A stretch of 64,000 nt of DNA from Clostridia bacterium (lineage in GTDB: Bacteria > Bacillota > Clostridia > Oscillospirales > Acutalibacteraceae): assembly GCA_017626295.1 (NCBI GenBank), contig JAGAJB010000022.1:1-64000 (forward strand), read 5' to 3'. This document shows, in pieces, positions 42,774-57,707 of the stretch (position 1 is its first letter; the number at the start of each line of letters is the position of its first letter). Below the pieces are notes generated by a model. That model did no database searches, had not been told where the DNA came from, and saw only the letters and a program-made list of their open reading frames with translations. The position numbers were made by a program, and so were the translations under genes.

Positions 42774-43850
42774 TTACTTAACTTTTACAATCCAGCCGTT
42801 CTTATCTTCGATTTTGCCCCACTGAATACCTGTGAGTTCATCGTAGAGGAACTGTGCAACAGGTCCGATTTCATTATTATTGATAATAATGTGTTCGTCA
42901 CCGTCGATGTATTCACCAACAGGAGAAATAACCGCTGCAGTACCTGTACCGAAAGATTCGTTAAGTTTGCCGTTTTTGTGAGCCTCTTTAACTTCGTCAA
43001 TAGAAATCTTGCGCTCCTCAACTTTATAGCCGTGGGCTTTAAGAACTTCTATACAACTTGCTCTTGTTACACCGGGAAGAATGTTGCCGTCTGTAAGTTC
43101 GGGGGTAACAACCACACCGTCGATTACAAAGAATACGTTCATAGCACCAACTTCGTCGATGTACTTTCTTTCAACACCGTCAAGCCAGAGAACCTGAGCG
43201 TAGCCCATTTTATCAGCCTTTTCCTGACCGATAAGAGATGCTGCGTAGTTACCGCCTGCTTTTGCCATACCTGTACCGCCTTTAACGCAACGTACATATT
43301 CGCGTTCAATAGCGATTTTAACAGGGTCCATACCGTTGGGATAGTAAGAGCCAACGGGTGAAAGGATAATAGCAAAAAGATAACTGTGTGAAGGATGAAC
43401 ACCAAGGAATTCATCAGTAGCAATAATGAAAGGACGAATATAAAGAGATGTTCCGTCGCTATGGGGAACCCAGTCGCTATCAACATCAACAACTGTCTTA
43501 ATAGCCTCAAGAACCATATCGGGATCAAGGCGAGGTACACAAAGACGGTCGCAAGTGTTGTTCATTCTTTCGATATTTTTCTGAGGACGGAAAAGTTGGA
43601 TGCTACCGTCAGCAGTTCTGTATGCTTTAAGACCTTCGAAAAGTTCCTGTGCATAGTGGAAAACCATTGCTGAGGGGTCGAGAGCAATAGGTCCGTAAGG
43701 AACTACCCTGCCGTCGTGCCAACCTTGACCGTCATCATAATTCATTAAAAACATATGGTCAGTAAAAATTTTACCGAAACCGAGTTTTGCTTCGCTCTCG
43801 GGCTTTGCCTTGGGAGCAGTAGTTCTTTCAATTTTGAAATCGTAACTCAT
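42774..43850 (-). CDS. ilvE: Branched-chain amino acid aminotransferase
   Basis: 358 residues, the long (class II BCAT) type of fold-IV PLP enzyme. Transfers an amino group between glutamate and the 2-oxoacids of valine, leucine and isoleucine. Seen: VFHYAQELFEGLKAYR, MAKAGGNYAASLIGQ with the PLP-site region, LWLDGVERKYIDEVGAMN and NESFGTGTAAVISPVG. AGAGGTTATTTCA precedes ATG 43850. It is last in the 2-oxoacid oxidoreductase operon, 26 nt after the gamma subunit, linking acyl-CoA, 2-oxoacid and amino acid. Confidence 0.95.
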   Translation of the reverse strand: MSYDFKIERTTAPKAKPESEAKLGFGKIFTDHMFLMNYDDGQGWHDGRVVPYGPIALDPSAMVFHYAQELFEGLKAYRTADGSIQLFRPQKNIERMNNTCDRLCVPRLDPDMVLEAIKTVVDVDSDWVPHSDGTSLYIRPFIIATDEFLGVHPSHSYLFAIILSPVGSYYPNGMDPVKIAIEREYVRCVKGGTGMAKAGGNYAASLIGQEKADKMGYAQVLWLDGVERKYIDEVGAMNVFFVIDGVVVTPELTDGNILPGVTRASCIEVLKAHGYKVEERKISIDEVKEAHKNGKLNESFGTGTAAVISPVGEYIDGDEHIIINNNEIGPVAQFLYDELTGIQWGKIEDKNGWIVKVK

Positions 43851-43876
43851 TGAAATAACCTCTTTTCCAAATTCAA

Positions 43877-44413
43877 TCAATAATCGTAACCGAGTTTAAG
43901 TGCAGTTTTGTTTACTTCAAGAAGATCCTTATGACGTGCTGAAACAACCTTTGAGAGAGGTGCATCAATGCCGTCAAAACCAAGCATGGGAACTTCCTTA
44001 AGCACTTTACCTGTGATAATCATATTAGCGAGTGTGCTGATGCCTTTTTCGTTAGCAATTTCTGTTGAAGGAATGTAGTAAACATCAACGTCTGTTCTTT
44101 CAACTTTACGTGAAATAAGAGTTGAGTCAACAAAAATCTTACCGCCGGAAACCACTTCATTCTCGTATTTATCAAGAGAAGGAAGGTTCATTGCTACGAG
44201 TACGTCGGGTTTGCCGACAATGGGAGAACCGATGGGTTCGTCACTTACGATAACGCTGCAGTTAGCAGTACCGCCACGCATTTCGGGACCGTATGAAGGA
44301 AGCCAGGAAACCTGTTTGTTTTCAAGAAGTCCTTTGTATGCTACGAATTTACCGGCAAAAAGGATACCCTGACCGCCGAAGCCGGCAAAAAGAATATTAC
44401 ATGTGTTACTCAT
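43877..44413 (-). CDS. 2-oxoacid:ferredoxin oxidoreductase, gamma subunit
   Basis: 178 residues, the family's gamma domain, with [20 protein letters not shown] at the N-terminus and [17 protein letters not shown]. It completes a four-subunit enzyme that interconverts a 2-oxoacid plus CoA and an acyl-CoA plus CO2, using ferredoxin. Overlaps the beta subunit gene by one base. Confidence 0.92.
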
Positions 44414-45165
44414 TATTTTGCCTCCTCTGCATAGATATCTTTATAAACACCGAGAGGATAGTAAGGAAGCATATTATCCTCGAGCCATTTAAGTGCTTTT
44501 TCGGGTGAAAGACCCCAGTTTGTAGGACAAGTTGAAACAACTTCAACAAGTGAGAAGCCTTTGCCGTCAATCTGATTCTGGAAAGCCTTTTTAATTGCGG
44601 CTTTTGCTTTTCTTACGTTTGCGGGATTGTTAACAGAAACTCTTTCAAGGTAAGCAGCACCGTCAACATTCTGAAGAAGTTCGCAAACTTTTACGGGATA
44701 ACCGACAGTTTCAACATCTCTGCCGTAAGGTGATGTCTGTGTAACCTGACCGGGAAGTGTTGTGGGAGCCATCTGACCGCCTGTCATACCGTAAATTGCG
44801 TTATTAACGAAGATTACTGTGATATTTTCGCGTCTTGCAGCAGCGTGAACTGTTTCAGCAGTACCGATAGCGGCAAGGTCACCGTCACCCTGATATGTGA
44901 AAACAATGTTGTTTTCGGGGTCTGCACGTTTTACACCTGTTGCAACAGCCGGTGCTCTGCCGTGGGGTGCCTGAATAAAGTCACAGGTAAAATAATCATA
45001 AGCCATAACCGAACAGCCAACAGGTGCAACACCTATTGTTCTGCCGTCAATACCGAGTTCATCAATAACTTCGGCAACAAGTCTGTGGATAATACCGTGA
45101 GTACAACCGGGACAATAGTGAAGCGGTGCATCGGTGAGTGTCTTGGGTTTTTCAAAAACTACCAT
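44413..45165 (-). CDS. 2-oxoacid:ferredoxin oxidoreductase, beta (TPP) subunit
   Basis: 250 residues, thiamine diphosphate-binding subunit. The TPP motif GDGDLAAIGTAE is followed by IFVNNAIYGMTGGQMAPTT, and the N-terminal CPGCTHG segment is present. By similarity of the whole complex the substrate class is branched-chain or aromatic 2-oxoacids rather than pyruvate. One-base overlaps with the subunits on both sides. Confidence 0.93.
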   Translation of the reverse strand: MVVFEKPKTLTDAPLHYCPGCTHGIIHRLVAEVIDELGIDGRTIGVAPVGCSVMAYDYFTCDFIQAPHGRAPAVATGVKRADPENNIVFTYQGDGDLAAIGTAETVHAAARRENITVIFVNNAIYGMTGGQMAPTTLPGQVTQTSPYGRDVETVGYPVKVCELLQNVDGAAYLERVSVNNPANVRKAKAAIKKAFQNQIDGKGFSLVEVVSTCPTNWGLSPEKALKWLEDNMLPYYPLGVYKDIYAEEAK

Positions 45166-46229
45166 TATTTGTCGCCTCCTTCATTGATTTCCTCAATCTT
45201 TGCAAGAACCTCTTCGGGTGAGGGAATCATACCGCCTGTGCGGTTGCAAAGATATACGGGTTTCTTGCACTCTGTTGCAAGTTTAACGTCTTCAATCATC
45301 TGACCCATATTCATTTCAACAGAAAGGAATGCCTTGCATTTATCAGCAGCGGCTCTTAAAACTTTCTTGGGGAAAGGCCAGAGTGTAATAGGACGAATCA
45401 TACCAACCTTGATACCTTTAGCACGTGCTTCAACAATAGCGTTCTTAGCAACACGGGCAGTGATACCGAAGGATACTACGCAGATTTCTGCATCGTCCAT
45501 AAGATATTCTTCGTAAAGAACTTCATTCTCTTCAATTGTTTTGTATCTTGCAAAACGCTCAAAGTTTGTCTTTTCAAGTTCTTCGGGTTTAAGGTAAAGA
45601 GAGTTAACGATATTGTGTTTTCTCTCCCCTTTTGTACCTGTAAGAGCCCAGGGTTTATCGAATGTGTTGGGCTTTGTTTCGGGAAGTTCAACAGGCTCCA
45701 TCATCTGACCCATTGTACCGTCTGCAAGAATCATTGCAGGCATTCTGTACTTGTCAGCAAGGTCAAATGCTGTGCTTGTAAGAGAAGCCATTTCCTGAAC
45801 TGAAGAAGGTGCAAGGACAATTTTCATAAAGTCGCCGTGGCTACCGCCTTTAACTGCCTGGAAATAGTCTGACTGTGAGGGCTGAATACCGCCGAGACCG
45901 GGGCCGCCACGCTGTACGTTAACAATAAGTGCAGGAACATCGCTACCCGCTATGTATGAAATACCCTCGCTCTTAAGAGATACACCGGGGCTTGAACTTG
46001 ATGTCATAACTCGTTTGCCTGTTGCGGCAACACCGAGAACCATATTGATAGCGGCAATTTCACTTTCAGCCTGAAGGAATACGCCGCCTACTTTGGGCAT
46101 ACGCTTTGCCATATATGCGGCAATTTCTGTCTGAGGGGTAATGGGATAGCCGAAATAATGCATACAGCCTGCTCTGATAGCGGCTTCAGCAATGGCTTCA
46201 TTACCTTTCATTAAAACTTTCTCACCCAT
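45165..46229 (-). CDS. vorB: 3-methyl-2-oxobutanoate:ferredoxin oxidoreductase alpha subunit (VorB type)
   Basis: 354 residues, pyrimidine-binding alpha subunit: FGYPITPQTEIAAYMAKRM, QAESEIAAINMVLG, TSSSSPGVSLKSEGISY and VNVQRGGPGLGGIQPSQSD. This segment pattern is that of VorB, the subunit of the 2-oxoisovalerate enzyme, which acts on the 2-oxoacids of valine, leucine and isoleucine. Starts 10 nt after the ferredoxin subunit gene. Confidence 0.9.
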   Translation of the reverse strand: MGEKVLMKGNEAIAEAAIRAGCMHYFGYPITPQTEIAAYMAKRMPKVGGVFLQAESEIAAINMVLGVAATGKRVMTSSSSPGVSLKSEGISYIAGSDVPALIVNVQRGGPGLGGIQPSQSDYFQAVKGGSHGDFMKIVLAPSSVQEMASLTSTAFDLADKYRMPAMILADGTMGQMMEPVELPETKPNTFDKPWALTGTKGERKHNIVNSLYLKPEELEKTNFERFARYKTIEENEVLYEEYLMDDAEICVVSFGITARVAKNAIVEARAKGIKVGMIRPITLWPFPKKVLRAAADKCKAFLSVEMNMGQMIEDVKLATECKKPVYLCNRTGGMIPSPEEVLAKIEEINEGGDK

Positions 46230-46239
46230 TTATTTCACC

Positions 46240-46446
46240 TTACCTTTCAACAGTTATAGCGCAGTCGGGGCACATTGTTGCGCAGAAAGCACAACCGATG
46301 CACTTGCTTTCATCAATGCAATGTGCAGGATGGTGACCTTTTGCATTAAGTTTTGATGAGTCTAACTCTACGATTTTCTTGGGGCAAGCAGTTACGCATA
46401 AACCGCAACCCTTACACACATTTTCTGCAAATGTAACTTTTGCCAT
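46240..46446 (-). CDS. Ferredoxin-like delta subunit, two [4Fe-4S] clusters
   Basis: 68 residues with two CxxCxxCxxxC motifs (CKGCGLCVTACP and CIGCAFCATMCP). It carries electrons between the TPP centre and free ferredoxin. First gene of the oxidoreductase-ilvE operon, with GGAGG before its ATG. The 90 nt to the P-loop ATPase gene hold an imperfect hairpin only. Confidence 0.93.
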   Translation of the reverse strand: MAKVTFAENVCKGCGLCVTACPKKIVELDSSKLNAKGHHPAHCIDESKCIGCAFCATMCPDCAITVER

Positions 46447-46539
46447 TTTACTGCCTCCTTAGAGTGAATGTATTCGAACCAAATATGCCTTAAATGTCCG
46501 AATTCACGCACCTTTGTAATTTTTTTGTCTTGTAATACG

Positions 46540-47202
46540 TCAGACAATTTTCTTTTGTAAAGTCAGCGGAAACAGATTTTGTACTTTTCCGTTGAGATTA
46601 TTAACTAAATCTTCTCTTACGGTTGTCATTTTAACAGGAAGTCCTGTTAATTCGCTTAACTTTTGGGTTTCGGCAACCGAATCGAGTATATCCTGTGCCT
46701 GTGTCATTTCGCCTAAATTAGAGTTATTGACAATGGCTGTGAATTTCATTTTGCAAGCATCTTCAATTTCACGCATTATCTCAACTGCTGATTCGGCATC
46801 GGGAGTTAAGGGACGGAATTTATTGAAAACGAAAAGAAGTTCATAATCGTTTTCTTCAATAATAGCGTCCGAATATCTGCCCAGAGCATAGGCACCGCGG
46901 TCATCACCGCCTATATCCATTATCGCCTTTTCTTCGCGTTTGTCAAGAAGGGAATATACTTCCTGCGGCAACGCTGGTAAATCCACATTGGAACTTGCAA
47001 ACTCTGAAGAAATAAGTTTTATTCCTGCGGCTGTTAATTCATCAAGACTGTCACGAGTTCTGAAATAAGGGTTTACTATATCAAGGTCTGCAATAACAAC
47101 CTCGTTACCAAGGGCTTTAAGATGCAGTGCATAGTTTACGGCAATATTGGTTTTACCGCTTCCGTAGTGCCCTGCAAACAAGGTCATTCGTTTATACTGC
47201 AT
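46540..47202 (-). CDS. P-loop ATPase of unknown role
   Basis: 220 residues of the SIMIBI/MinD-like class: Walker A GHYGSGKTNIAVNYAL at the N-terminus, ADLDIVNPYFRTRD (Walker A' type switch) and IMDIGGDDRGAYALGRY. No transmembrane or DNA-binding part. It starts 11 nt after the upstream acyl-CoA synthetase gene and precedes the ferredoxin gene, so it belongs to the same cluster. It could help mature a metal centre or a CoA-enzyme; this is inference. Confidence 0.75.
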   Translation of the reverse strand: MQYKRMTLFAGHYGSGKTNIAVNYALHLKALGNEVVIADLDIVNPYFRTRDSLDELTAAGIKLISSEFASSNVDLPALPQEVYSLLDKREEKAIMDIGGDDRGAYALGRYSDAIIEENDYELLFVFNKFRPLTPDAESAVEIMREIEDACKMKFTAIVNNSNLGEMTQAQDILDSVAETQKLSELTGLPVKMTTVREDLVNNLNGKVQNLFPLTLQKKIV

Positions 47203-47213
47203 CTGATCACCTC

Positions 47214-49502
47214 TTAAAGTTTATTTCTTTGAATTTTTCCGCTTGTTGTTTTAGGCAATTCATCTTTAAATACAACAATACGGGGATATTTGTAAGGAGC
47301 AGTTCTCTCCTTAACATACTGCTGAATTTCTTTCTTAAGTTCGTCTGTACCCTCTGTGCCTGCAACAAGGACGATACTTGCTTTAACCACCTGTCCCCTT
47401 ACTTCGTCGGGTGCTGCGGAAACACCGCATTCAAGAACATAAGGAAGTTCCATAATAACACTTTCGATTTCAAAGGGTCCGATACGGTAACCGGAGGATT
47501 TGATAACGTCATCAACACGGCCTACATACCAATAGAAACCGTCCTCATCCATCCAGGCAACGTCGCCTGTATGGTAGTAACCGTCGTGCCAGACTTCTTT
47601 AGTCTTTTCTTCGTCGTGATAGTAACCTGTAAACAAGCCACAGGGTGCGCCGTCTTTAACTTTAACAACGATTTCGCCGTTTTCACCTGCTTTAACAGGG
47701 TTACCGTCGCTGTCAAGAAGGCAAACATCATAAATAGGTGCGGGTTTACCCATTGAACCGATTTTATGAGGTGCGCCTGTCATATTACCGATAATCATTG
47801 TGCTTTCGGTCTGACCGAAGCCTTCAAGAATCTGAAGTCCTGTTGCTTTTTCAAACTGACGGTAAACTTCGGGGTTGAGAGCCTCACCGGCAGTTGTCAT
47901 ATGTTTAACGGAACTGAAATCGTATTTTGAAATATCTTGTTTTATCATCATTCTGAGCATTGTGGGAGGTGCGCAGAACGTTGTTATTTTATGTTTTGCA
48001 AACATGGGAAGAATGTCTGCCGCATCGAAACGGTCAAAGTCATAAACGAACAAAGCCGCCTCGCAAAGCCACTGACCGTAAAGTTTACCCCACATTGCCT
48101 TTGCCCAACCTGTATCGGAAATAGTAAAGTGCAAGCCGTCGGGGTCAACATTATGCCAATACTTTGCAGTATGGAAATGACCGAGAGCATATTTATAGTT
48201 ATGTACTGCGATTTTGGGATAGCCTGTTGTACCGGAGGTAAAGAACATAAGCATTAAATCGTCGCCACCGGGGGCATCTTCGGTTCTTTCGTAATGAGAA
48301 CTGAAAAGAGCGCTTTCTTCATCGTAATTGCGCCAACCGTCACGAGTACCGCCAACTGCAATTTTAATTTCGAGACCGGGGCACTTTGCCGCTGCTAAAT
48401 CAACCTGATTTGCAACATCACCGTCTGTTGTGCAAAGTATTGCCTTAACACCTGCTGCTTGGAAGCGATATTCAAGGTCGTGCTCTAAAAGTTGGTTAGG
48501 TGCGGGAATACCGATAGCGCCAAGTTTATTAAGACCGAGCATTGCAAACCAATACTGATAATGGCGTTTGAGAATAAGCATTACCCTGTCGCCTTTTTTT
48601 ATACCTAAAGATTTGAAATAGTTTGCAGCCTGGTTGGAGGCTTTTTTCATATCTTTGAAAGTGAAGCGACGCTCTGTTTTATCCCTTGAAACGTGAAGCA
48701 TTGCAAGTTTCTCGGGTTCTTTATCTGCCAGTGCATCAATAAGGTCAAAGGCAAAGTTAAAGTTTTCTGTATTCTTGAATTTAATTGAAGTGGGAGTTCC
48801 GTTATCATTCTCCTCAACGTCAATAAATTTACGGTAAATACGGTCTTTGGTGTCTTTATGAGATGTTTTTGTGCCTCTTAATGTCTGTGCGTGGGTAAGT
48901 TCGGGAATCGGTTCACCCGTGGGGTTAAGAACGAGTGCATAGAAAGTACAGTCACTACCGTCAACGGCTATCATACCGTGAGGAGTTGAACTGTCGTAAT
49001 AAATGCTGTCACCGGGGCCGAGAACTTCGTAATGCTCGCCTACCTGAACTTTAAGTTTACCCTCAATAACAATGTCAAGTTCCTGACCTGCGTGGGTGGT
49101 AAGTTCAATATCACGGTGTTGCTTTTCTTCATCGTACGTACTGCGAACGAAAAGAGGCTCGGCAATTCTGTTTTTGAAAGAAGCGGCAAGGTTATAGTAT
49201 GTCATACCGTGGGCTTTTTCAATTTTCTGTCCTTTGCCTGCTTTTGTGAAAACATAGTTTGAAAGTTTAGGGCTGTGACCCTCAATAATACTTGTTACGT
49301 CAACATTAAATGCAAGAGCGCAACGGTAAATAAACGCGAAGTTAAGGTCGCTTTCACCGTTTTCACAAGCGATATATTCACTTTCACTAACGTCGGTTTT
49401 AATTGCCATCTCGGCAACGCTTAAGTTCTCAATTTCCCTGAGTTCTTTAATACGCGCTGCCATTTCCTTGATTTTGTAATCAAGACCGGTAATTTTCTTC
49501 AT
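47214..49502 (-). CDS. XRE-cupin-acyl-CoA synthetase fusion (copy 1)
   Basis: 762 residues. Domains: helix-turn-helix of XRE type (about 8-65, RIKELREIENLSVAEMAIKT), cupin_2 (about 100-185, THAGQELDIVIEGKLKVQVG and PGDSIYYDSSTPHGM), then a full AMP-forming acyl-CoA synthetase (about 215-762) with MLMFFTSGTTGYPKIAVHN, GFGQTEST, HTGDVAWMDEDGFYWYVGR and the C-terminal lysine in PKTTSGKIQRNKL. HTH-cupin proteins are usually free regulators; fusion to the enzyme is unusual. ATG 49502 has AGGAGG; a T-box leader precedes it. Likely activates a short branched or aryl acid. Confidence 0.9.
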   Translation of the reverse strand: MKKITGLDYKIKEMAARIKELREIENLSVAEMAIKTDVSESEYIACENGESDLNFAFIYRCALAFNVDVTSIIEGHSPKLSNYVFTKAGKGQKIEKAHGMTYYNLAASFKNRIAEPLFVRSTYDEEKQHRDIELTTHAGQELDIVIEGKLKVQVGEHYEVLGPGDSIYYDSSTPHGMIAVDGSDCTFYALVLNPTGEPIPELTHAQTLRGTKTSHKDTKDRIYRKFIDVEENDNGTPTSIKFKNTENFNFAFDLIDALADKEPEKLAMLHVSRDKTERRFTFKDMKKASNQAANYFKSLGIKKGDRVMLILKRHYQYWFAMLGLNKLGAIGIPAPNQLLEHDLEYRFQAAGVKAILCTTDGDVANQVDLAAAKCPGLEIKIAVGGTRDGWRNYDEESALFSSHYERTEDAPGGDDLMLMFFTSGTTGYPKIAVHNYKYALGHFHTAKYWHNVDPDGLHFTISDTGWAKAMWGKLYGQWLCEAALFVYDFDRFDAADILPMFAKHKITTFCAPPTMLRMMIKQDISKYDFSSVKHMTTAGEALNPEVYRQFEKATGLQILEGFGQTESTMIIGNMTGAPHKIGSMGKPAPIYDVCLLDSDGNPVKAGENGEIVVKVKDGAPCGLFTGYYHDEEKTKEVWHDGYYHTGDVAWMDEDGFYWYVGRVDDVIKSSGYRIGPFEIESVIMELPYVLECGVSAAPDEVRGQVVKASIVLVAGTEGTDELKKEIQQYVKERTAPYKYPRIVVFKDELPKTTSGKIQRNKL

Positions 49503-49819
49503 AATTTTCCTCCTGTAATTCGGCGGGACGGTAAAAAACAAGAACTCGTCCCAAAGATAATCTTTGAGACGAGTAAAAAAATCAATTTTATACCCGCGGT
49601 ACCACTCAAATTGCAGTAAAAACTGCCTCTCTCAAGGTCAAACAACCCCTATGCATTTACGCAGCAATCACGGAGAGGTTCTACTAAGCGAAAAGCCTTT
49701 CTTCCTCCCGGCTCAGAAACTACAAACATCAGTCACACAACCTATGGCTTGCACCAACCGCCACTTCTCTGCAAGGTGAATTAACTGCGCCCTTTTCTTC
49801 AACGCCTTTTTATTCAATT
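49503..49819 (-). promoter_or_regulatory. T-box leader A (before acyl-CoA synthetase copy 1)
   Basis: A 317-nt minus-strand leader. The T-box core GTGGTACCGCGG is at 49605-49594. Stem I has the CAGAGA and GGTTGGTGCAAGCC features. A terminator (ACTCGTC... 49544-49574) with a T-run follows the antiterminator position. Uncharged tRNA pairing would favour antitermination and switch the synthetase on. I could not fix the specifier codon by eye; a GTA/GTT and a TTC triplet lie where it is expected. Confidence 0.93.
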
Positions 49820-49825
49820 TCCTCA

Positions 49826-49854
49826 AAGATACCACATCTGCCTTGATTTGTCAA
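49826..49854 (-). promoter_or_regulatory. Promoter of T-box leader A
   Basis: Minus strand TTGACA (49854-49849), 17 bp, TATCTT (49831-49826). It gives acyl-CoA synthetase copy 1 its own transcript. Confidence 0.75.
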
Positions 49855-49891
49855 TAGCAGACGGCTATTTTTTATTGTATTTTCCGTCGGA

Positions 49892-52165
49892 TTACAGTTT
49901 GTTTCTGATGATTTTTCCGCTGATGGTTTTAGGAAGTTCATCTTTAAACACAACTATACGGGGATATTTATAAGGAGCAGTATTTTTCTTAACATAATCC
50001 TGAATCTCTTTTTTGAGTTCTTCCGTACCTTCCGTACCCTGTGTAAGAACGATACTTGCTTTAACTACCTGGCCCCTTACTTCATCGGGTGCTGCAGAAA
50101 CACCGCACTCAAGAACATAAGGAAGTTCCATAATAACGTTTTCGATTTCAAAGGGTCCTATACGGTAGCCGGATGATTTGATAACATCATCAACACGGCC
50201 CACGTACCATAAATAACCGTCCTCATCACGCCAAGCAGTATCACCTGTGTGGTAAAGTCCGTCGTGATAAACTTCCTTGGTCTTTTCTTCATCATTATAA
50301 TATCCGAGGAAGAGACCGCAAGGAACACCGTTATCGGTATGAACTACGATTTCACCTGTTTCACCGTCTGCAACGGGATTACCGTGCGGGTCAACAACAT
50401 CAATATCATAAAGCGGTGTGGGTTTACCCATAGCACCGATTTTGATGGGTGTACCGTTAAGGTTTGCAATTGAAAGTGTAGTTTCAGTCTGACCGAAGCC
50501 TTCGTGAACGCGAAGGCCTGTTGCCTTCTTAAACTGTTTGAAAACTTCGGGGTTAAGTGCCTCACCCGCTGTTGTAGCGTGTTTTATAGAGGAAAGGTCA
50601 TACTGTGAAATATCCTGTTTTATAAGCATTCTGTACATTGTGGGAGGTGCGCAGAACGTTGTGATATTGTATTTTGCGAACATGGGAAGAATCTTCGAAG
50701 CATCAAAACGCTCAAAGTCATATACGAAAACTGCACCCTCGCAGAGCCACTGACCGTAGAGTTTACCCCAGAGTGCTTTACCCCAACCTGTTTCGGAAAT
50801 GGTAAAGTGGATGCCGTCACGCTCTACGCAATGCCAATATTTAGCAGTGATAAAGTGGCCGAGAGGATATTTATGACTGTGTACGGCAATTTTGGGATAA
50901 CCTGTTGTACCTGATGTAAAGAACATTATCATCGGGTCATCACCGCAAGCAGTATCATCATCGCGAACGAAACGACGGCTGAAAAGTCCGAACTCTTCAT
51001 CAAAATTATGCCAACCGTCTTTTTTGCCGTTAGCAACAATTTTAATCTGTAATGTGGGGCTGTTCTTCTGTGCCTCGTCGATATTCTCGGTTGCTTTACC
51101 GTCGGCAGTAGCAATAACTGCAGATACACCTGCTGAATTGAAGCGGTATTCGTAATCGTGAACAACAAGTTGATTTGTTGCGGGGATTGCAACTGCACCG
51201 AGTTTATGAAGTCCGAGAATTGCAAGCCAGAACTGATAGTTCCTTTTAAGAACAAGAAGAACTCTGTCGCCTTTTTTGATACCTAAAGATTTAAAGTAGT
51301 TTGCAGCCTGTGAAGATGCCTCTTTAATATCTTTAAATGTGAAACGGCGTTCTGTTAAATCATCGGCAATGTGAAGCATTGCGAGTTTATCGGGATACTT
51401 TCTGCCCAATTCATCAATTATATCGAAAGCGAAGTTGAATTTATCTTCGTCGTGGAACTTGATACTGTCGCAAACACCTTTGTCATCAACTGTAGTTGTG
51501 ATGAACTTATCGCAAACAAGGGGTGTTTCCTTAGAAACTTTGTTTACGGTAACAGTGCTCATATGCTCGTCTGCGGTATCTTCATCCTCAGCCATAACCA
51601 TAGCAAGGAACAGGCAGTCTTCACCGTCAACGGCTATCATACCGTGGGGAGTTGAACTCTTATAATAGATACTGTCACCCTCGTGAAGAACTTCAACGCG
51701 GTCACCTATCTGAACTTTAAGCGCACCCTTGATGACAAGGTCAAATTCCTGACCGGAGTGTGTTGTAACTTCAATGGGTTTAGACTGAAGTTCGCTTGAA
51801 TATTCATACTTAACCCAATAGGGATTGGCGAGTTTCTTTTTAAAATTAGGAGCAAGGTTCTGAATAAGTATGCCTTCCTCGTTAGCGGTAGTTGTACCTT
51901 CGCCGCGTCGGGTTACGTTATAAGTTGAAAGTTTTGCACTCTGACCTTCCAACAAATCTGTAATTTCAACACCGAATGCAAGGGCACACTTATGAACGAA
52001 AGTGAAAGGCATATCGTCTTTGCCCTCTAAATATGCGCGGTATTCGTCGAGGCTGACTTCTGTTTTCTTAGCCATTTCTTCATCCGTAAAACCGTAAATG
52101 TTACGAAGTTCCGAAATACGCTGTGCAACCTCAGCGAGTTTGTTTGTTACTGAATTATCGACCAT
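49892..52165 (-). CDS. XRE-cupin-acyl-CoA synthetase fusion (copy 2)
   Basis: 757 residues with the same domain order as the gene downstream: XRE helix-turn-helix (about 10-65), cupin (about 100-190, THSGQEFDLVIKGALKVQIG) and acyl-CoA synthetase (about 210-757) with MIMFFTSGTTGYPKIAVHS, GFGQTETT, HTGDTAWRDEDGYLWYVGR and PKTISGKIIRNKL. Long stretches of the C-terminal half are identical to copy 1, while the N-terminal parts differ more, so the two are tandem duplicates with different sensors or substrates. GAAAGGATG precedes the ATG. It has its own T-box. Confidence 0.9.
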   Translation of the reverse strand: MVDNSVTNKLAEVAQRISELRNIYGFTDEEMAKKTEVSLDEYRAYLEGKDDMPFTFVHKCALAFGVEITDLLEGQSAKLSTYNVTRRGEGTTTANEEGILIQNLAPNFKKKLANPYWVKYEYSSELQSKPIEVTTHSGQEFDLVIKGALKVQIGDRVEVLHEGDSIYYKSSTPHGMIAVDGEDCLFLAMVMAEDEDTADEHMSTVTVNKVSKETPLVCDKFITTTVDDKGVCDSIKFHDEDKFNFAFDIIDELGRKYPDKLAMLHIADDLTERRFTFKDIKEASSQAANYFKSLGIKKGDRVLLVLKRNYQFWLAILGLHKLGAVAIPATNQLVVHDYEYRFNSAGVSAVIATADGKATENIDEAQKNSPTLQIKIVANGKKDGWHNFDEEFGLFSRRFVRDDDTACGDDPMIMFFTSGTTGYPKIAVHSHKYPLGHFITAKYWHCVERDGIHFTISETGWGKALWGKLYGQWLCEGAVFVYDFERFDASKILPMFAKYNITTFCAPPTMYRMLIKQDISQYDLSSIKHATTAGEALNPEVFKQFKKATGLRVHEGFGQTETTLSIANLNGTPIKIGAMGKPTPLYDIDVVDPHGNPVADGETGEIVVHTDNGVPCGLFLGYYNDEEKTKEVYHDGLYHTGDTAWRDEDGYLWYVGRVDDVIKSSGYRIGPFEIENVIMELPYVLECGVSAAPDEVRGQVVKASIVLTQGTEGTEELKKEIQDYVKKNTAPYKYPRIVVFKDELPKTISGKIIRNKL

Positions 52166-52500
52166 AACTTTTCATCCTTTCAAAAAAGAAATAATCAAAA
52201 ACGCACAAATAAAAAAGCCCCAAAATAAAGCAAATTTGCTTTACTTTGAGACGAATATAATATCCGCGGTACCACTCAAATTGCAATAATAATATTGCCA
52301 CCTCAGGAGTCCATCAACTCCGTTGCACTAACGCAGCATTCTCGGAAAGCGCCTACTCAAACATAATCTTTCGGACCTTCGGCTCGGAAGGGATGGGTCA
52401 ATGAAAAAACAAACTGTCGGCTCACAGCAACCGCCGACTCTCTGAAAGTCGTTAATTTCGACCGTCTTCGTCATAGCTTTTATTTGTGATATTTTTAATT
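52166..52500 (-). promoter_or_regulatory. T-box leader B (before acyl-CoA synthetase copy 2)
   Basis: Minus strand leader with the core GTGGTACCGCGG (52275-52264) and a classic stem I (TTTCAGAGAGTCGGCGG, loop, GAGCCGAC). The terminator stem CCCCAAAATAAAGCAAA with its partner (52218-52250) has a T-run after it. Candidate specifier triplets AUC and CCC lie in the expected segment before CTTCCGAGCC; I cannot choose between them safely. Confidence 0.93.
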
Positions 52501-52506
52501 TCTAAA

Positions 52507-52535
52507 AGATTAACACACTTCATTTTTTCTGTCAA
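52507..52535 (-). promoter_or_regulatory. Promoter of T-box leader B
   Basis: Minus strand TTGACA (52535-52530), 17 bp, TAATCT (52512-52507) with an extended TG. Confidence 0.75.
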
Positions 52536-52588
52536 TAGTTTTTTTAAATTTTTTCTGTTTTTTACCTCAAAAAATTTAAAAATAAGTG

Positions 52589-52617
52589 TTGACAAACCTA
52601 AAAAATAATGATATTAT
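52589..52617 (+). promoter_or_regulatory. Promoter of T-box leader C
   Basis: TTGACA (52589-52594), 17 bp, TATTAT (52612-52617). It is divergent from the leader B promoter with 53 bp between the two -35 boxes, so one regulator could touch both. Confidence 0.8.
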
Positions 52618-52623
52618 TTCACA

Positions 52624-52900
52624 CATATTCATAAATGCGATGAAGGAATTACGTATTTTTGGTTTTACACTTCAGAGAGTTGACGTTTGCTGCGAGTCAA
52701 TGTGTTGCAAAAATTCGGTCTCGTTCCGGAGCAGAGTTTCCCAACCGCTTAGGCGTGTAAGAAACTACGGCGGCCCCGTTACCATGGCTACAGGCTTATA
52801 GGAGCCTTAATGAGTGACTGCTTTTGCAGTAACCGGGGTGGTACCGCGGATTTTACGATTCGTCCCTGAGGTCAGATTTATATTTGACCTCGGGTTTTTT
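52624..52900 (+). promoter_or_regulatory. T-box leader C (before the LeuA-like operon)
   Basis: The core GTGGTACCGCGG is at 52839-52850. Stem I starts around TTCAGAGAGTTGACG and closes with GTCAA. The terminator CCCTGAGGTCA...TGACCTCGGG (52864-52894) is followed by six T. It controls the LeuA-like gene and the fusion synthetase behind it. UUC, GUC and CUC triplets lie in the possible specifier region; not assigned. Confidence 0.93.
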
Positions 52901-52961
52901 ATTGCCCTGTGCCGTAATTGGATATTACATTATATTATATAGTCGCGAAAGGATGAATAAC

Positions 52962-54350
52962 ATGAGAAGAGTTATTATTTCTGACATCACACTTAAAAAA
53001 ATTTCAGAGGACAGAGCCGTATCCTTGCTTTTCCGTGAAAAATCTGCTATTGCAATCTGTGCTGATAAAATCGGTTCAGATATTATTGAAATTCCTGCAG
53101 TTAAATCTCCCCGCGAGGATAGAATCATATATAAAACAATAGCACAGAACATACAGAATGCTGTTTTTGCAATTCCCGTAGGATTCAGCAGTGAAGATAT
53201 TTCTGTTGCGTGGGATTGTATCAAGGATGCAAAAAAACCGCGTCTTCAGGTTGAACTTCCGGTATCTACTATTCAGATGGAATATACATACCACGTAAAA
53301 CAAGCAAAAATGCTTGAGAAAATTGCCGCACTTATCAAGGAAGCAAAAGCATTATGCGACGATGTAGAATTTTCTGCGCTTGATGCAACAAGAGCAGATG
53401 AAGATTTCCTTATTACCGCGTTAAAAGAAGCGGAAACCTGCGGTGCAACTATGGTTACTATCTGTGACGATGCAGGTACCTCGACTCCTGAGAATATTGC
53501 AGAATTAGTTACTAAGGCAAAGAATGCTGTAAGTATTCCTGTTTTTGTACAGGTATCAGACCGTATCAATATGGGTGTTGCTTCTGCTTTCACTGCTATT
53601 AAATGCGGTGTTGACGGTATTAAATGTGCAATGGTTGGTAAAGATGCTCTTCTCACAGGTGAAATTTCTGACGCAATAAACGCTTGCGGTGCACAGATTG
53701 ATGCAGAAATCAACCTTAACAACACAAAAATCCACGCAAGCATTGATGACATACTCGCTAATATTAATCACGATAGTTATGAAAATGAAAAAACCGTAAG
53801 CGAAAAGAAGAAGATTTTACTCGACTCTGATTCTTCTATAGCTCAGGTAACACAGGCATCAATAGTTTTAGGTTACGAACTTTCTGATTCAGATATAGGT
53901 AACGTATATAAAACACTTATGCAGGTATGTGAAAAGAAAGGTGCTGTGGGCTACAAAGAATTTGAAGCAATTATAGCAAGTTCAGCTATGCAGGCGCCTT
54001 CAACCTATCACTTTGAAACATACACAACAACCAGCAGTAATATGTCAAGTTCAATGTCACAGGTTACTTTGAAATGTAATGATGAGATTATCTGCGGTGT
54101 AAGTAACGGTGATGGCCCTATTGACTCTGTTTTCCGTGCAATCGAACAGTGCATCGGTCACCACTATGAACTTGATGATTTCCAGGTACAGTCTGTTACC
54201 GAAGGAAAAGAAGCGCTCGGTTCAGCACTTGTAAAACTTCGTAACAACGGAAAACTTTATTCAGGTAACGGCACATCTACTGATATTGTCGCCGCAAGCA
54301 TCAGAGCATATATCAATGCATTAAACAAGATTATATTTGAGGAGGAATAA
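52962..54350 (+). CDS. LeuA-like protein with degenerate catalytic domain
   Basis: 462 residues. The C-terminal part (about 340-462) is a clear 2-isopropylmalate synthase allosteric domain: GDGPIDSVFRAIEQ, VTEGKEALGSALVKLRNNGK and GNGTSTDIVAASIRAYINAL. The N-terminal part has the DRE-TIM barrel pattern, but key residues are missing. The usual DTTLRDG reads DITLKKI, the metal-binding HxH before ND reads QVS, and the GERxGN loop is not found. It therefore probably lacks normal synthase activity and may act as a leucine or 2-oxoacid sensor or a modified aldolase. ATG 52962 follows GAAAGGATG. T-box controlled and coupled to the fusion gene behind it. Confidence 0.75.
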   Translation: MRRVIISDITLKKISEDRAVSLLFREKSAIAICADKIGSDIIEIPAVKSPREDRIIYKTIAQNIQNAVFAIPVGFSSEDISVAWDCIKDAKKPRLQVELPVSTIQMEYTYHVKQAKMLEKIAALIKEAKALCDDVEFSALDATRADEDFLITALKEAETCGATMVTICDDAGTSTPENIAELVTKAKNAVSIPVFVQVSDRINMGVASAFTAIKCGVDGIKCAMVGKDALLTGEISDAINACGAQIDAEINLNNTKIHASIDDILANINHDSYENEKTVSEKKKILLDSDSSIAQVTQASIVLGYELSDSDIGNVYKTLMQVCEKKGAVGYKEFEAIIASSAMQAPSTYHFETYTTTSSNMSSSMSQVTLKCNDEIICGVSNGDGPIDSVFRAIEQCIGHHYELDDFQVQSVTEGKEALGSALVKLRNNGKLYSGNGTSTDIVAASIRAYINALNKIIFEEE

Positions 54351-54351
54351 G

Positions 54352-56805
54352 ATGAAAATTGCATTTTCAACTAAGAATGTAACCCGCCCCTCATTCCTTG
54401 ACACTTGCCGTTACGCTTTTGACTACGGTTTTGAAGGCTTTGAAATTTACGATGCCATAAAAGAAAGAAGCGGACATCACGACAGCATTTTAAGGCGTGA
54501 CCGCATTGCTGATGCGCACAGAAAACTTGTTAACAGAAATCTTTCCGTCTGCGCACTTCGTATGCCGTATCCCATTGAGAGCGAAGAAACAACTGCAGAA
54601 CTTGTAGAAAAATACGTAAATATGGCTGCGGTATCAGGCATCGAAAATATTATTGTCCGTGCAGAATCAAAAACAGATTTTGCCGTATTGGATGAAAAAA
54701 TGTCCGCCGCTATCAAACGTGCTGAAGAAACCGACGTAAACATTTTATTTGAAACCGTTGGTTATCTTGCAAAAACTGAAAATGTCATTGACATTATAAA
54801 CCACTTTGCTTGCGCTGCTATCGGTGCTTCATGGAACGTAAGATCCACATGTTTCGGTGCGGGCGAAAATGCAGAAACCACCATCAAAAATCTGGGTGCA
54901 TATATTAAATATGTGCGACTCGGTGATATGAAGGATGGCAAAACCGTTTTAATCGGCGAAGGCGATCTTGACGTAAAAAAATTATTGAACTCCCTTTCTT
55001 CACTTAATTATGAAGGTTTTATCTGCGTTGCATGGAACGAAGAAATCAGCGATGCAGACATCGTTCTCACCCACTTCACAAACTACATTTCATCTTTATC
55101 CCGTGAGAAAAAATCCTATGACCGTGCATACTACAATCGTGATAAATCCGGCACTTTCGTTTGGAAAAAGTACGACATTTTAGATGCAACCTTTTCTGAC
55201 GTGCTTGACACAATGGCAGAAACCTACCCTGACCAGTATGCATTCAAATATCCAACGTTGGATTACACAAGAACTTATGAGCAATTCCGTCGCGACGTTG
55301 ACGAATGTGCTGCTGCATTGATTTCACTGGGCGTAAAAGCCGGTGACCACGTGGCAATATGGGCAACTAACATTCCCCAGTGGTTCCTTACCTTCTGGGC
55401 AACAACAAAAATCGGTGCGGTTCTTGTTACCGTCAATACAGCCTATAAAATCCACGAAATTGAATATCTTCTCAAGCAATCAGACACTCATACCCTCGTT
55501 ATGATTGAATACTGCAAAGACATCAACTACAAAGAAATTATTGAAGAACTTTGCCCCGAACTCAAGGACCTTGAACCCGGTTCGCCGTTGTATTCAAAAA
55601 ATCTGCCTTTCCTTCGTAACGTTGTAACCGTTGGTTTTGATATGGACGGTTGTCTTAACTGGGAGCAGATGTTGTCACGTTCTGCACTTGTTCCGAGAGA
55701 AGAAGTCCGCAGACGCGCTTCCCTTGTAAAGCCTGACGACGTTTGTAATATGCAGTACACTTCAGGTACAACAGGCTTTCCCAAGGGTGTTATGCTTACA
55801 CACAGAAACATTGTAAATAACGGTAAGACTATCGGTGACAGAATGGATTTATCAACTGCTGACCGTATGATGATTCAGGTGCCTATGTTCCATTGCTTCG
55901 GCATGGTACTTTCTATGACGTCTATGATGACTCACGGCGGTACGCTTTGTCCCATCCCCTATTTCTCACCGAAATCATCGCTTGCTTGCGTAAACGACGA
56001 ACGAATCACCTGTTTCAACGGCGTTCCCACAATGTTTATCGCAATGTTCAATCATCCCGACTTTGCGAAAACAGATTTCTCATATATGCGAACAGGCATT
56101 ATGGCAGGTGCTAACTGTCCTGCGGACCTTATGCGCCGTGCTTCAGTTGAAATGAATATGAAAGAAATCCTTTCGGTTTACGGTCAGACAGAGGCCTCCC
56201 CCGGTTGTACAATGGGTGAAGTTAACGAAGATCTTGATCACCGTGTTGAAACTGTAGGTAGCGCATTCCCCGGTATTGAATGCAAAATCATTGACCCTGA
56301 AACAGGACTTGAACTTCCTGACGGTCAGAGTGGCGAATTTGTTGCCCGTGGCTTTAACATTATGAAGGGTTATTACAAAATGCCCGAAGCAACCGCACAG
56401 GCAATTGACAGCGAGGGCTGGCTTCACTCCGGCGATATTTGTATGAGAACTCCCGACGGCTACTACAAAGTTACGGGACGTCTGAAGGATATGATTATCC
56501 GTGGCGGCGAAAACCTCTATCCCCGTGAAATTGAGGAATTCTATCTCACCAACCCCAAGATTCGTGACGTGCAGGTTGTAGGTGTTCCCGATGAACAGTA
56601 CGGTGAGGAATGCTGTGCATGGATTATTCTTCACAAGGGCGAAACAGCGGACGAAAAAGAAATGAAGGAATACGGTTATGCTTCTATAGCAAAGCATAAA
56701 GTTCCCAGATACTTCTTATTTGTAAATGAATTCCCCATGAATGCCGCAGGTAAGATTCTTAAATACAAAATGCGCGAAGAGGCTATTGAAAAATACGGAC
56801 TTTAA
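54352..56805 (+). CDS. TIM-barrel (xylose isomerase-like) and acyl-CoA synthetase fusion
   Basis: 817 residues. The N-terminal domain (about 1-260) resembles sugar-phosphate isomerase/epimerase TIM barrels (MKIAFSTKNVTRPSFLDTC, ILFETVGYL, IGEGDLDVKKLLNSL). Of the four usual metal ligands only the Glu of LFET is clearly kept: the DxxH segment reads WNVRS and the HVHxKD segment YVRLGD. The C-terminal domain (about 285-817) is an intact AMP-forming synthetase: MQYTSGTTGFPKGVMLTHRN, YGQTEASPG, HSGDICM, GRLKDMIIRGGENLYPREIE and the lysine of AAGKILKYK. GAGGAGG stands before ATG 54352, one base past the LeuA-like stop codon. Confidence 0.85.
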   Translation: MKIAFSTKNVTRPSFLDTCRYAFDYGFEGFEIYDAIKERSGHHDSILRRDRIADAHRKLVNRNLSVCALRMPYPIESEETTAELVEKYVNMAAVSGIENIIVRAESKTDFAVLDEKMSAAIKRAEETDVNILFETVGYLAKTENVIDIINHFACAAIGASWNVRSTCFGAGENAETTIKNLGAYIKYVRLGDMKDGKTVLIGEGDLDVKKLLNSLSSLNYEGFICVAWNEEISDADIVLTHFTNYISSLSREKKSYDRAYYNRDKSGTFVWKKYDILDATFSDVLDTMAETYPDQYAFKYPTLDYTRTYEQFRRDVDECAAALISLGVKAGDHVAIWATNIPQWFLTFWATTKIGAVLVTVNTAYKIHEIEYLLKQSDTHTLVMIEYCKDINYKEIIEELCPELKDLEPGSPLYSKNLPFLRNVVTVGFDMDGCLNWEQMLSRSALVPREEVRRRASLVKPDDVCNMQYTSGTTGFPKGVMLTHRNIVNNGKTIGDRMDLSTADRMMIQVPMFHCFGMVLSMTSMMTHGGTLCPIPYFSPKSSLACVNDERITCFNGVPTMFIAMFNHPDFAKTDFSYMRTGIMAGANCPADLMRRASVEMNMKEILSVYGQTEASPGCTMGEVNEDLDHRVETVGSAFPGIECKIIDPETGLELPDGQSGEFVARGFNIMKGYYKMPEATAQAIDSEGWLHSGDICMRTPDGYYKVTGRLKDMIIRGGENLYPREIEEFYLTNPKIRDVQVVGVPDEQYGEECCAWIILHKGETADEKEMKEYGYASIAKHKVPRYFLFVNEFPMNAAGKILKYKMREEAIEKYGL

Positions 56806-56830
56806 AAAGCAAACAGCATAATAACATTAT

Positions 56831-56866
56831 AAAAGTCGGACAGAGGCAATGCCCGTCCGACTTTTT
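56831..56866 (+). terminator. Terminator after the fusion synthetase gene
   Basis: AAAAGTCGGAC and GTCCGACTTTT pair over 11 bp with a T-run. The amidohydrolase ribosome site TGAGGTAA follows within 10 nt. Confidence 0.88.
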
Positions 56867-56882
56867 AATTTGAGGTAATACT

Positions 56883-57707
56883 ATGAAAGACTACAAAATA
56901 ATTGACTCGCATTGCCACATCTTTCCCGATAAAATCGCAGAAAAGGCTACGAAAAGCACCGATAGATTTTACGGAATAACAGATGCGGGAATAAAAACAT
57001 CTGGTTACGTAGGCAACGTGAGAACACTTCTTGCACAGTGCAGAGTTATGAATATAGATAAATGCATTGTAAACTCCGTTGCAACAACCGCACATCAGGT
57101 ACGAAGTATAAATGAATTTATTGCAAACGAAGTAACTCTTCACCCCGATAAATTTATAGGTTTAGGTGCTATGCACCCGGACAGTGAAGATTTTGAGGGT
57201 GATGCTGACCATATTATTGAATTGGGTCTTCACGGTGTTAAACTTCACCCCGATATACAGAATTTTAAAATTGATGACCCAAAGGCACTTAAAATCTTTG
57301 ATGTTTGTGAAAAGAAAGGTCTGCCCATTCTTATCCACACAGGTGACTCCCGATTTGATAACTCAAACCCCAACAGAGTTGCGCCTGTTCTGGAACAATT
57401 TCCCGACCTCGTTGTAATCGGCGCACATATGGGCGGTTGGTCAATCTGGAAAGAAGCATCAGAAAAACTTTCAAAATTCAAGAATTTTTACGTTGATACC
57501 TGTTCCTCGTTTTACGCTCTGAAAAAAGAAGATGCAAAGAAAATAATTGAAACATACGGAACAGATAAAGTAATATTCGGTACTGATTTCCCGATGTGGC
57601 CCGCAAAAGACGAATTAGAATATCTGTTTTCCCTCGGTTTTTCCGAACCGCAGTTGGAAGATATATTACATAATAACATCCTTAAAGTTTTGAAGATATA
57701 CGATTAA
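56883..57707 (+). CDS. Amidohydrolase family protein (amidohydrolase_2 type)
   Basis: 274 residues, a metal-dependent TIM-barrel hydrolase or decarboxylase. Ligands seen: DSHCHIFP (HxH) at the N-terminus, GVKLHPD, ILIHTGD, GAHMGG and the Asp in FGTDFPMWP near residue 240. Related proteins hydrolyse or decarboxylate carboxylates. It starts right after the terminator of the synthetase operon and may be read through from it. Substrate unknown. Confidence 0.87.
   Translation: MKDYKIIDSHCHIFPDKIAEKATKSTDRFYGITDAGIKTSGYVGNVRTLLAQCRVMNIDKCIVNSVATTAHQVRSINEFIANEVTLHPDKFIGLGAMHPDSEDFEGDADHIIELGLHGVKLHPDIQNFKIDDPKALKIFDVCEKKGLPILIHTGDSRFDNSNPNRVAPVLEQFPDLVVIGAHMGGWSIWKEASEKLSKFKNFYVDTCSSFYALKKEDAKKIIETYGTDKVIFGTDFPMWPAKDELEYLFSLGFSEPQLEDILHNNILKVLKIYD

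Follow-up and report, generated by a model that had tools for sequence, protein, structure and literature searches.

T-box leaders with isoleucine, valine and leucine specifiers head acyl-CoA synthetase units beside a Vor-type oxidoreductase: a proposed link between tRNA charging and branched-chain acid carboxylation

Introduction

Why would RNA switches that respond to tRNA charging stand before enzymes that activate carboxylic acids? The question is raised by a 64,000-nucleotide stretch of a Clostridia bacterium of the order Oscillospirales (GenBank assembly GCA_017626295.1, contig JAGAJB010000022.1, positions 1 to 64,000; hereafter the window), in which three T-box leaders, three AMP-forming acyl-coenzyme A (CoA) synthetases, or ligases, a Vor-type 2-oxoacid:ferredoxin oxidoreductase and the aminotransferase IlvE lie together. 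Rumen bacteria carboxylate isovalerate to leucine (Leu), isobutyrate to valine (Val) and 2-methylbutyrate to isoleucine (Ile) (Allison, Robinson and others, cited in PMC7356843), and this chemistry has been known since the 1960s according to the literature cited there. We consider it very likely that the T-boxes couple tRNA charging to such a carboxylation route for Ile, Val and Leu, in which the substrates, the direction of the Vor reaction, the induction and the role of a LeuA-like protein are predicted from sequence.

Results

Three leaders specify Ile, Val and Leu

Leaders were searched with the Rfam covariance model RF00230 (cut-off 93 bits), and the resulting alignments were inspected by eye for the specifier codons. 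The Leu and Ile leaders exceeded the cut-off (110 and 104 bits), and the Val leader, scoring 81 of 93 bits with an E value of 1e-16, was recovered also in a genome-wide scan with the same model. Each synthetase unit has its own specifier: AUC (Ile), GUA (Val) or CUC (Leu). An earlier note on this DNA had set such codon reading beforehand as its refutation test; the codons proved to be those of Ile, Val and Leu and not of unrelated amino acids, and the pattern is kept in relatives. An antiterminator sequence, GUGGUACCGCG, is common to all three leaders, and directly after each comes a terminator-like hairpin (13-16 pairs, T tail). In the region, 25 terminator-like sites were counted, compared with 13.9 in shuffles. 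Promoter-like sites stay within chance (36 against 30.5 expected, standard deviation 5.9), making the promoter scan weak evidence; the Val leader is preceded by its own promoter-like site and may be transcribed independently of the Ile unit. Chance T-boxes were ruled out by the terminators and by the recurrence of same-codon leaders before related genes.

The whole genome holds 11 T-boxes at E <= 0.001, six of them over the Rfam cut-off, and several served as calibrators. The same reading gave UUC at pheS, ACC at thrS, AUC at ileS and UGG at two trpB genes, the aminoacyl-tRNA synthetase (aaRS) genes being named by eye from translations and trpB by TIGR00263 (510 bits, one copy). UAC (Tyr) was read in two more, which precede a fourth ligase and a sodium:solute symporter, respectively. 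As in the calibrators, A or G follows the codon in 62/62 Val, 43/49 Leu and 74/119 AUC leaders; this base is C in the Ile leader of the window, as in 42 of the 119 AUC leaders. Across all 239 tallied leaders with Ile, Val or Leu codons the bulge reads UGGU, and it reads UGGC at trpB and UGGA at thrS. These bases match the expectation from tRNA discriminator bases. Each leader is predicted to bind the matching uncharged tRNA and to be induced by it.

The leader-ligase pairing recurs in relatives

Ile-type ligases, including some lacking the XRE-cupin part described below, were matched at E <= 1e-60 in 136 of 197 genomes of the order. A selection of the hits, 80 stretches of 66 genomes that surround a ligase or LeuA-like gene, was fetched together with 80 loci of named records, the best 80 of 576 relatives; the leader counts cover these 160 loci. 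The named records are nearly all metagenome-assembled genomes (MAGs), many of them titled as ruminant gut. At 95% identity, the 217 fetched ligases fall into 210 clusters.

Among 104 Ile-type ligases, 94 follow an AUC leader, eight have none and two are cut. For five of those eight, the Rfam model detects an upstream T-box that was read by eye as AUC, which brings the count to 99/104 Ile with three lacking a leader. The 72 Val-type ligases carry 56 GUA and six GUC leaders (62/72 Val), one AUC and nine none. LeuA-like genes of at least 44% identity (n=26) stand behind CUC in 24 cases and CUG in one (25/26 Leu), with one lacking a leader. More divergent members were counted separately: 40 LeuA-like genes below 44% identity gave 16 CUC, eight CUG, 10 none, two cut and four re-read as Leu; 32 Val-like ligases gave 19 AUC, nine none and four re-read as AUC (one unsure); and nine Ile-like ligases gave five AUC and four none. 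The re-readings concern leaders that the script had mis-called (4/40 and 4/32) and were made by eye and unblinded; four of them (L102, L103, L110 and the unsure L117) enter the tree labels.

An unrooted FastTree tree was built from 219 ligases, namely the fetched 217 and the two of the window (124 Ile, 63 Val, 32 unlabelled). With the 32 unlabelled rows left out, the Ile/Val label changes once, and every Val row falls inside one clade of 77 (63 Val, 14 none). When rows lacking a leader are treated as a separate state, 21 changes are counted, compared with 82.5 in shuffles. The simplest reading of this tree would be a single duplication with a codon switch.

The company of the ligases also recurs. 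Genes on the same strand within 9 kb were counted for the 78 Ile-clade ligases whose downstream sequence extends to 7 kb or more: VorA, B and C follow in 73/78, a relative of the P-loop NTPase lies near the Vor genes in 72/78 and IlvE is found in 59/78. A Val-clade ligase is the next gene in 68 of the 92 Ile-clade loci with room. A phylum-wide draw of 398 genomes gave 20 genomes with a ligase match at E <= 1e-200, 18 of them outside the order, where the script alone, run with no Rfam check, places a T-box at the ligase in four (G335, Ile and Val; G249, G509 and G341, Ile) and none in 14. The full arrangement is seen in Erysipelotrichaceae bacterium NK3D112 (L262), with Ile (AUC), Val (GUC) and Leu (by eye) leaders, both ligases, the LeuA-like/TIM-ligase pair, Vor and IlvE. 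This strain is probably an isolate, given a record that bears no MAG mark and its mention among the Hungate1000 genomes (PMC5069950).

The draft genome yields no ilvC, ilvD or canonical leuA

In the draft genome of the window (96.3% complete, 42 contigs), searches for ilvC and for ilvD/edd returned no match. No canonical leuA was found over the cut-off of 599 in this draft; the search gave only the LeuA-like gene, in two pieces of 116 and 113 bits, and a single match of 18.8 bits at another place. The same ilvC, ilvD and leuA searches matched in 14/14 control genomes, over cut-off in 14, 14 and 9 of the 14, respectively. Across the order, ilvC over cut-off is present in 13/74 genomes with a full-length ligase and in 78/123 others (P 2.5e-10, with independence inflated by kinship), the full-length set being defined by a best E < 1e-240 and including a few matches that are partial or cross stops where the regulator part meets the ligase part. 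The trend is the same for genomes with a LeuA-like gene (4/42, against 87/155 of those lacking it) and for those with the tandem Ile-Val locus (2/21, against 89/176 others), the genomes in both comparisons being related. Because ilvC, ilvD and canonical leuA find no counterpart in the draft and the specifiers are those of Ile, Val and Leu, the proposal of the earlier note that the synthetases serve amino acid supply, not breakdown, fits the data.

Two MbcS-like ligases and a distinct Leu unit

For both XRE-cupin ligases, the best NCBIfam match is MbcS (NF047394), at 450 and 438 bits, below its equivalog cut-off of 850. The MbcS enzyme of Staphylococcus aureus is described as selective for 2-methylbutyrate and isobutyrate, with isovalerate a poor substrate (PMC10026030), and the use of two MbcS-like ligases for Ile and Val but another subfamily for Leu fits this range. 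The Ile ligase would take 2-methylbutyrate and the Val ligase isobutyrate, while the Leu ligase is predicted to take isovalerate. In the window, the XRE-cupin domains are fused to the ligases (47214-52165, minus strand), whereas matches outside the order (L269-L275) are interrupted by stops. This suggests that the regulator and the ligase occupy two neighbouring frames in those loci and are fused in this genome.

The LeuA-like protein scores 226 bits against TIGR00973, whose equivalog cut-off is 598.7; the 116- and 113-bit pieces of the genome search are its two parts. At the Asp and HxH positions, which we take to be the metal-binding residues of LeuA, it carries K, Q and S. These ligands are lost also in 66 relatives, which keep D once at the Asp site and H in none and one at the two His sites. 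An active second LeuA was rejected on account of the lost metal site, although D167 and R170, also conserved positions of the active site, persist in 66/66 and 65/66 of these relatives, respectively. The leucine-binding regulatory domain (LeuA_dimer) is retained, and the protein is probably a leucine sensor for the neighbouring ligase. Structure prediction from the single sequence was unusable (predicted local distance difference test score, pLDDT, 37.6); with an alignment the pLDDT rose to 83.9 with a predicted template modelling score of 0.58. Full-length LeuA chains superpose with a root-mean-square deviation > 12 Å, so the structural comparison covers the barrel only.

The TIM-ligase lies directly after the LeuA-like gene in 57/57 loci with room. 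On the other hand, TIM-ligase relatives occur in 111/197 genomes of the order (E <= 1e-150; some lacking the TIM part) and LeuA-like genes in 42 (E <= 1e-40), a wider spread that speaks against a tight link. The TIM-barrel (AP_endonuc_2) domain occupies the N-terminus of the Leu ligase (54409-55038, plus strand), and matches lacking it occur in other genomes.

Organization of the locus

Every part named in the earlier note, a VorB-type enzyme, ilvE and three acyl-CoA synthetases, was recovered by profile searches in one locus (Table 1). On the minus strand, the order of transcription is Ile T-box, XRE-cupin-ligase, Val T-box, XRE-cupin-ligase, NTPase, ferredoxin subunit, Vor alpha, beta and gamma, and IlvE. 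The Vor-type subunit set is complete, with the alpha subunit assigned by NF005507 and the beta, gamma and ferredoxin subunits by Pfam domains, and the ferredoxin subunit and the P-loop NTPase are members of this stretch. The plus strand reads Leu T-box, LeuA-like gene, TIM-barrel-ligase fusion and amidohydrolase. Hence the claim that all synthetases lie behind T-boxes needs a correction: each of the three T-boxes heads a synthetase unit, but the third ligase is separated from its leader by the LeuA-like gene. The Val ligase probably has its true start at about 49502.

Table 1. Position, strand and supporting matches of the features of the locus (window coordinates)
Feature	Position	Strand	Evidence
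T-box leader, specifier AUC (Ile)	52244..52483	-	RF00230 104.2 bits; codon by eye from alignment; terminator-like hairpin 52252-52217
XRE-cupin-AMP-forming acyl-CoA synthetase, proposed 2-methylbutyryl-CoA synthetase (Ile branch)	49892..52165	-	HTH_19 (below cut-off), Cupin_2, AMP-binding; best NCBIfam match MbcS 450 bits
T-box leader, specifier GUA (Val)	49562..49811	-	RF00230 81.1 bits (cut-off 93), E 1e-16; hairpin 49574-49544; promoter-like TTGACA-17-TATCTT 49854-49826
Second XRE-cupin-acyl-CoA synthetase, proposed isobutyryl-CoA synthetase (Val branch)	47214..49541	-	HTH_19, Cupin_2, AMP-binding over cut-offs; MbcS best match 438 bits
P-loop NTPase, CbiA/ParA-like	46540..47202	-	Pfam matches below cut-offs
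VorD-like ferredoxin subunit, two 4Fe-4S motifs	46240..46446	-	Fer4 over cut-off; delta-subunit models below theirs
2-oxoacid:ferredoxin oxidoreductase alpha subunit (NCBIfam 'VorB' subfamily)	45165..46229	-	NF005507 558 bits, cut-off 399
2-oxoacid:ferredoxin oxidoreductase beta (thiamine pyrophosphate, TPP) subunit	44413..45165	-	PF02775 over cut-off; every NCBIfam match below cut-off
2-oxoacid:ferredoxin oxidoreductase gamma subunit	43877..44413	-	PF01558 over cut-off; every NCBIfam match below cut-off
Branched-chain amino acid aminotransferase IlvE	42774..43880	-	NF009897 502 bits, TIGR01123 418 bits, both over cut-offs
T-box leader, specifier CUC (Leu)	52631..52870	+	RF00230 110.3 bits; promoter-like TTGACA-17-TATTAT 52589-52617; terminator-like hairpin 52865-52894
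LeuA-like protein	52884..54350, probable start ATG 52962	+	LeuA_dimer 108 bits, HMGL-like 101 bits; no leuA model over its cut-off
TIM-barrel (AP_endonuc_2)-acyl-CoA synthetase fusion, proposed isovaleryl-CoA synthetase (Leu branch)	54337..56805, probable start ATG 54352	+	Best match PRK12583, 665 bits (cut-off 832)
Amidohydrolase-2 family protein	56883..57707	+	PF04909 over cut-off

Discussion

Proposed mechanism and alternative explanations

We propose that uncharged tRNA-Ile, tRNA-Val or tRNA-Leu would bind the leader bearing its codon, which would then form the antiterminator in place of the terminator and allow expression of the matching synthetase unit. The synthetases would convert 2-methylbutyrate, isobutyrate and isovalerate, which other microbes release as end products of amino acid fermentation, to their acyl-CoAs; VorABCD would reductively carboxylate these to 2-oxoacids, and IlvE would aminate the latter to Ile, Val and Leu. 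The LeuA-like protein, with its catalytic metal site lost and its leucine-binding domain kept, would sense leucine for the Leu ligase. VOR-like enzymes can prefer aromatic oxoacids (PMC13290082); the Vor of this locus is predicted to act on branched-chain substrates in the carboxylating direction.

Several observations weigh against this scheme. MbcS scores are about half of the cut-off. The lack of ilvC, ilvD and canonical leuA was observed in a 42-contig draft that is 96.3% complete, and 13/74 ligase genomes and 2/21 tandem-locus genomes do carry ilvC. Solo ligases stand behind Ile leaders in 27 of 35 cases and have Vor nearby in 0/27 with room, so the T-box-ligase pair is not invariably linked to carboxylation. 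These solo ligases would also suit synthetases that feed branched-chain membrane lipids, with T-boxes responding as amino acid shortage removes the usual source of acyl-CoA, and MbcS indeed serves lipid synthesis in S. aureus (PMC10026030). Lipids, however, need neither the VorABC found in 73/78 Ile-clade loci nor the IlvE found in 59/78, and both the Leu unit with its own Leu T-box and a Tyr T-box-ligase-IorAB operon elsewhere in the genome fit amino acid supply better, which makes a lipid role unlikely. A catabolic locus, in which IlvE and Vor oxidatively ferment branched-chain amino acids and the ligases run in reverse or recapture acids, appears very unlikely. Vor-type enzymes do act oxidatively in amino acid fermenters, from loci with aminotransferases, but these loci carry homologues of phosphate butyryltransferase and butyrate kinase (PMC13290082), in place of which AMP-forming ligases are found here. 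Moreover, T-boxes are expected to induce on amino acid shortage, the wrong sign for breakdown, and the missing ilvC and ilvD imply a need for supply.

The codon reading itself could be off by one base, the T-boxes then answering other tRNAs. One of the three lies below the Rfam cut-off, a shift would give His, Cys and Ser, and the base after the Ile codon of the window is C. Two leaders outside the locus need such a shift, and they too count against our reading: the alaS leader, initially read as CUG, gives GCU (Ala) when the distance between codon and GAG is lengthened by one base, a fit made after the gene was known and not an independent test, and the codon-to-GAG spacing of the Tyr symporter leader is also off by one. 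A fixed spacing as a universal rule is broken at both. Against a general shift stands the prevalence of A or G after the codon in the Ile, Val and Leu leaders, since the shifted reading would put C at this position in every AUC and CUC leader; the Ile/Val label also tracks the ligase tree, and the UGGU bulge speaks against Ser or His. We therefore regard a misread codon as extremely unlikely, and retain coupling of tRNA charging to branched-chain acid carboxylation as the preferred explanation.

Relation to known systems

The leaders share codon, antiterminator and terminator with classical T-boxes (RF00230), which precede aaRS, biosynthesis and transport genes, and amino-acid-specific induction would be expected here too; what differs is that they head acid-activating ligases. 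A table of 26 T-boxes of Clostridioides difficile lists aaRS, biosynthesis genes (including 2-isopropylmalate synthase), transporters and one ACT protein, with no CoA ligase or ferredoxin enzyme among its entries (PMC11477304), and a term search of the main text of PMC2494555 found no occurrence of CoA ligase, acyl-CoA, oxidoreductase or ferredoxin. Control of the acid-activating step by tRNA, with one tRNA per acid, was not found in the literature searched, a set that excluded the two main T-box surveys (PMC2271356, PMC2650889) and the regulon tables of PMC3766115, so that an earlier listing is possible. T-boxes and branched acid carboxylation are each known; as far as searched, their link through acid activation is new. 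The proposed conversion is the one described for rumen bacteria, to which our analysis would add the genes, one ligase per acid and tRNA-based control. With regard to S. aureus MbcS, the predicted substrates coincide and it is the best NCBIfam match, whereas the ligases of the window are fused to XRE-cupin domains and score about half of the cut-off, and the S. aureus enzyme serves lipid synthesis (PMC10026030). The LeuA-like protein, in turn, differs from 2-isopropylmalate synthase LeuA by the replacement of the metal-binding Asp and both His and by scores below the cut-offs of the leuA models.

In this family, a specifier RNA names the product of each ligase and thereby offers testable substrate predictions for a large ligase family, and the specifiers would also provide a sequence marker for carboxylating species. 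If the proposal is true, gut cross-feeding would be tied to tRNA charging, a signal for when to use the waste acids of neighbours.

Other T-box units in the genome

An aryl-acid role, also suggested in the earlier note, is ruled out for this locus by its Ile, Val and Leu specifiers. The idea survives in a parallel operon of the same genome (C31:44000-56000, L180, 4252-8520, minus strand), composed of a UAC (Tyr) T-box, the fourth ligase, IorA (713 bits, cut-off 651) and IorB (282 bits, cut-off 230). Relatives of this ligase occur in 68/197 genomes of the order, the present one included (E <= 1e-150). Of 29 loci of relatives, 12 have an Rfam T-box, read by eye as 10 UAC and two UUC, and IorA is adjacent in 10 of the 29 in a search of 1.5 kb of flank.

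The two trpB genes each lie behind a Trp (UGG) T-box (L007/L181 and L009/L182; contigs C36 and C32), and trpA has no match in this draft genome; a trpB pair lacking trpA could possibly serve indole salvage. Taken together, the T-boxes might delineate a salvage regulon, a joint claim that we put forward tentatively, at slightly less than an even chance. In such a regulon, the Ile, Val, Leu, Tyr (Phe in some relatives) and Trp T-boxes would each switch on the first step in rebuilding an amino acid from the fermentation products of other microbes, namely 2-methylbutyrate, isobutyrate, isovalerate, hydroxyphenylacetate or phenylacetate, and indole via TrpB in the absence of TrpA, with the dead LeuA acting as leucine sensor of the isovalerate ligase. 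The 11 T-boxes would then comprise six salvage units, one Tyr symporter and four aaRS genes. The genome also has an aroA-like gene (265 of 287 bits); it may therefore possess a shikimate pathway and could make Tyr without salvage.

Two further observations concern the Tyr units. The sodium:solute symporter (PF00474) behind the Tyr (UAC) T-box (L183:2140-4011, plus strand) perhaps imports tyrosine or an aryl acid, and near one relative of the Tyr-operon ligase a TPP riboswitch is found (L161:3921-4022, minus strand).

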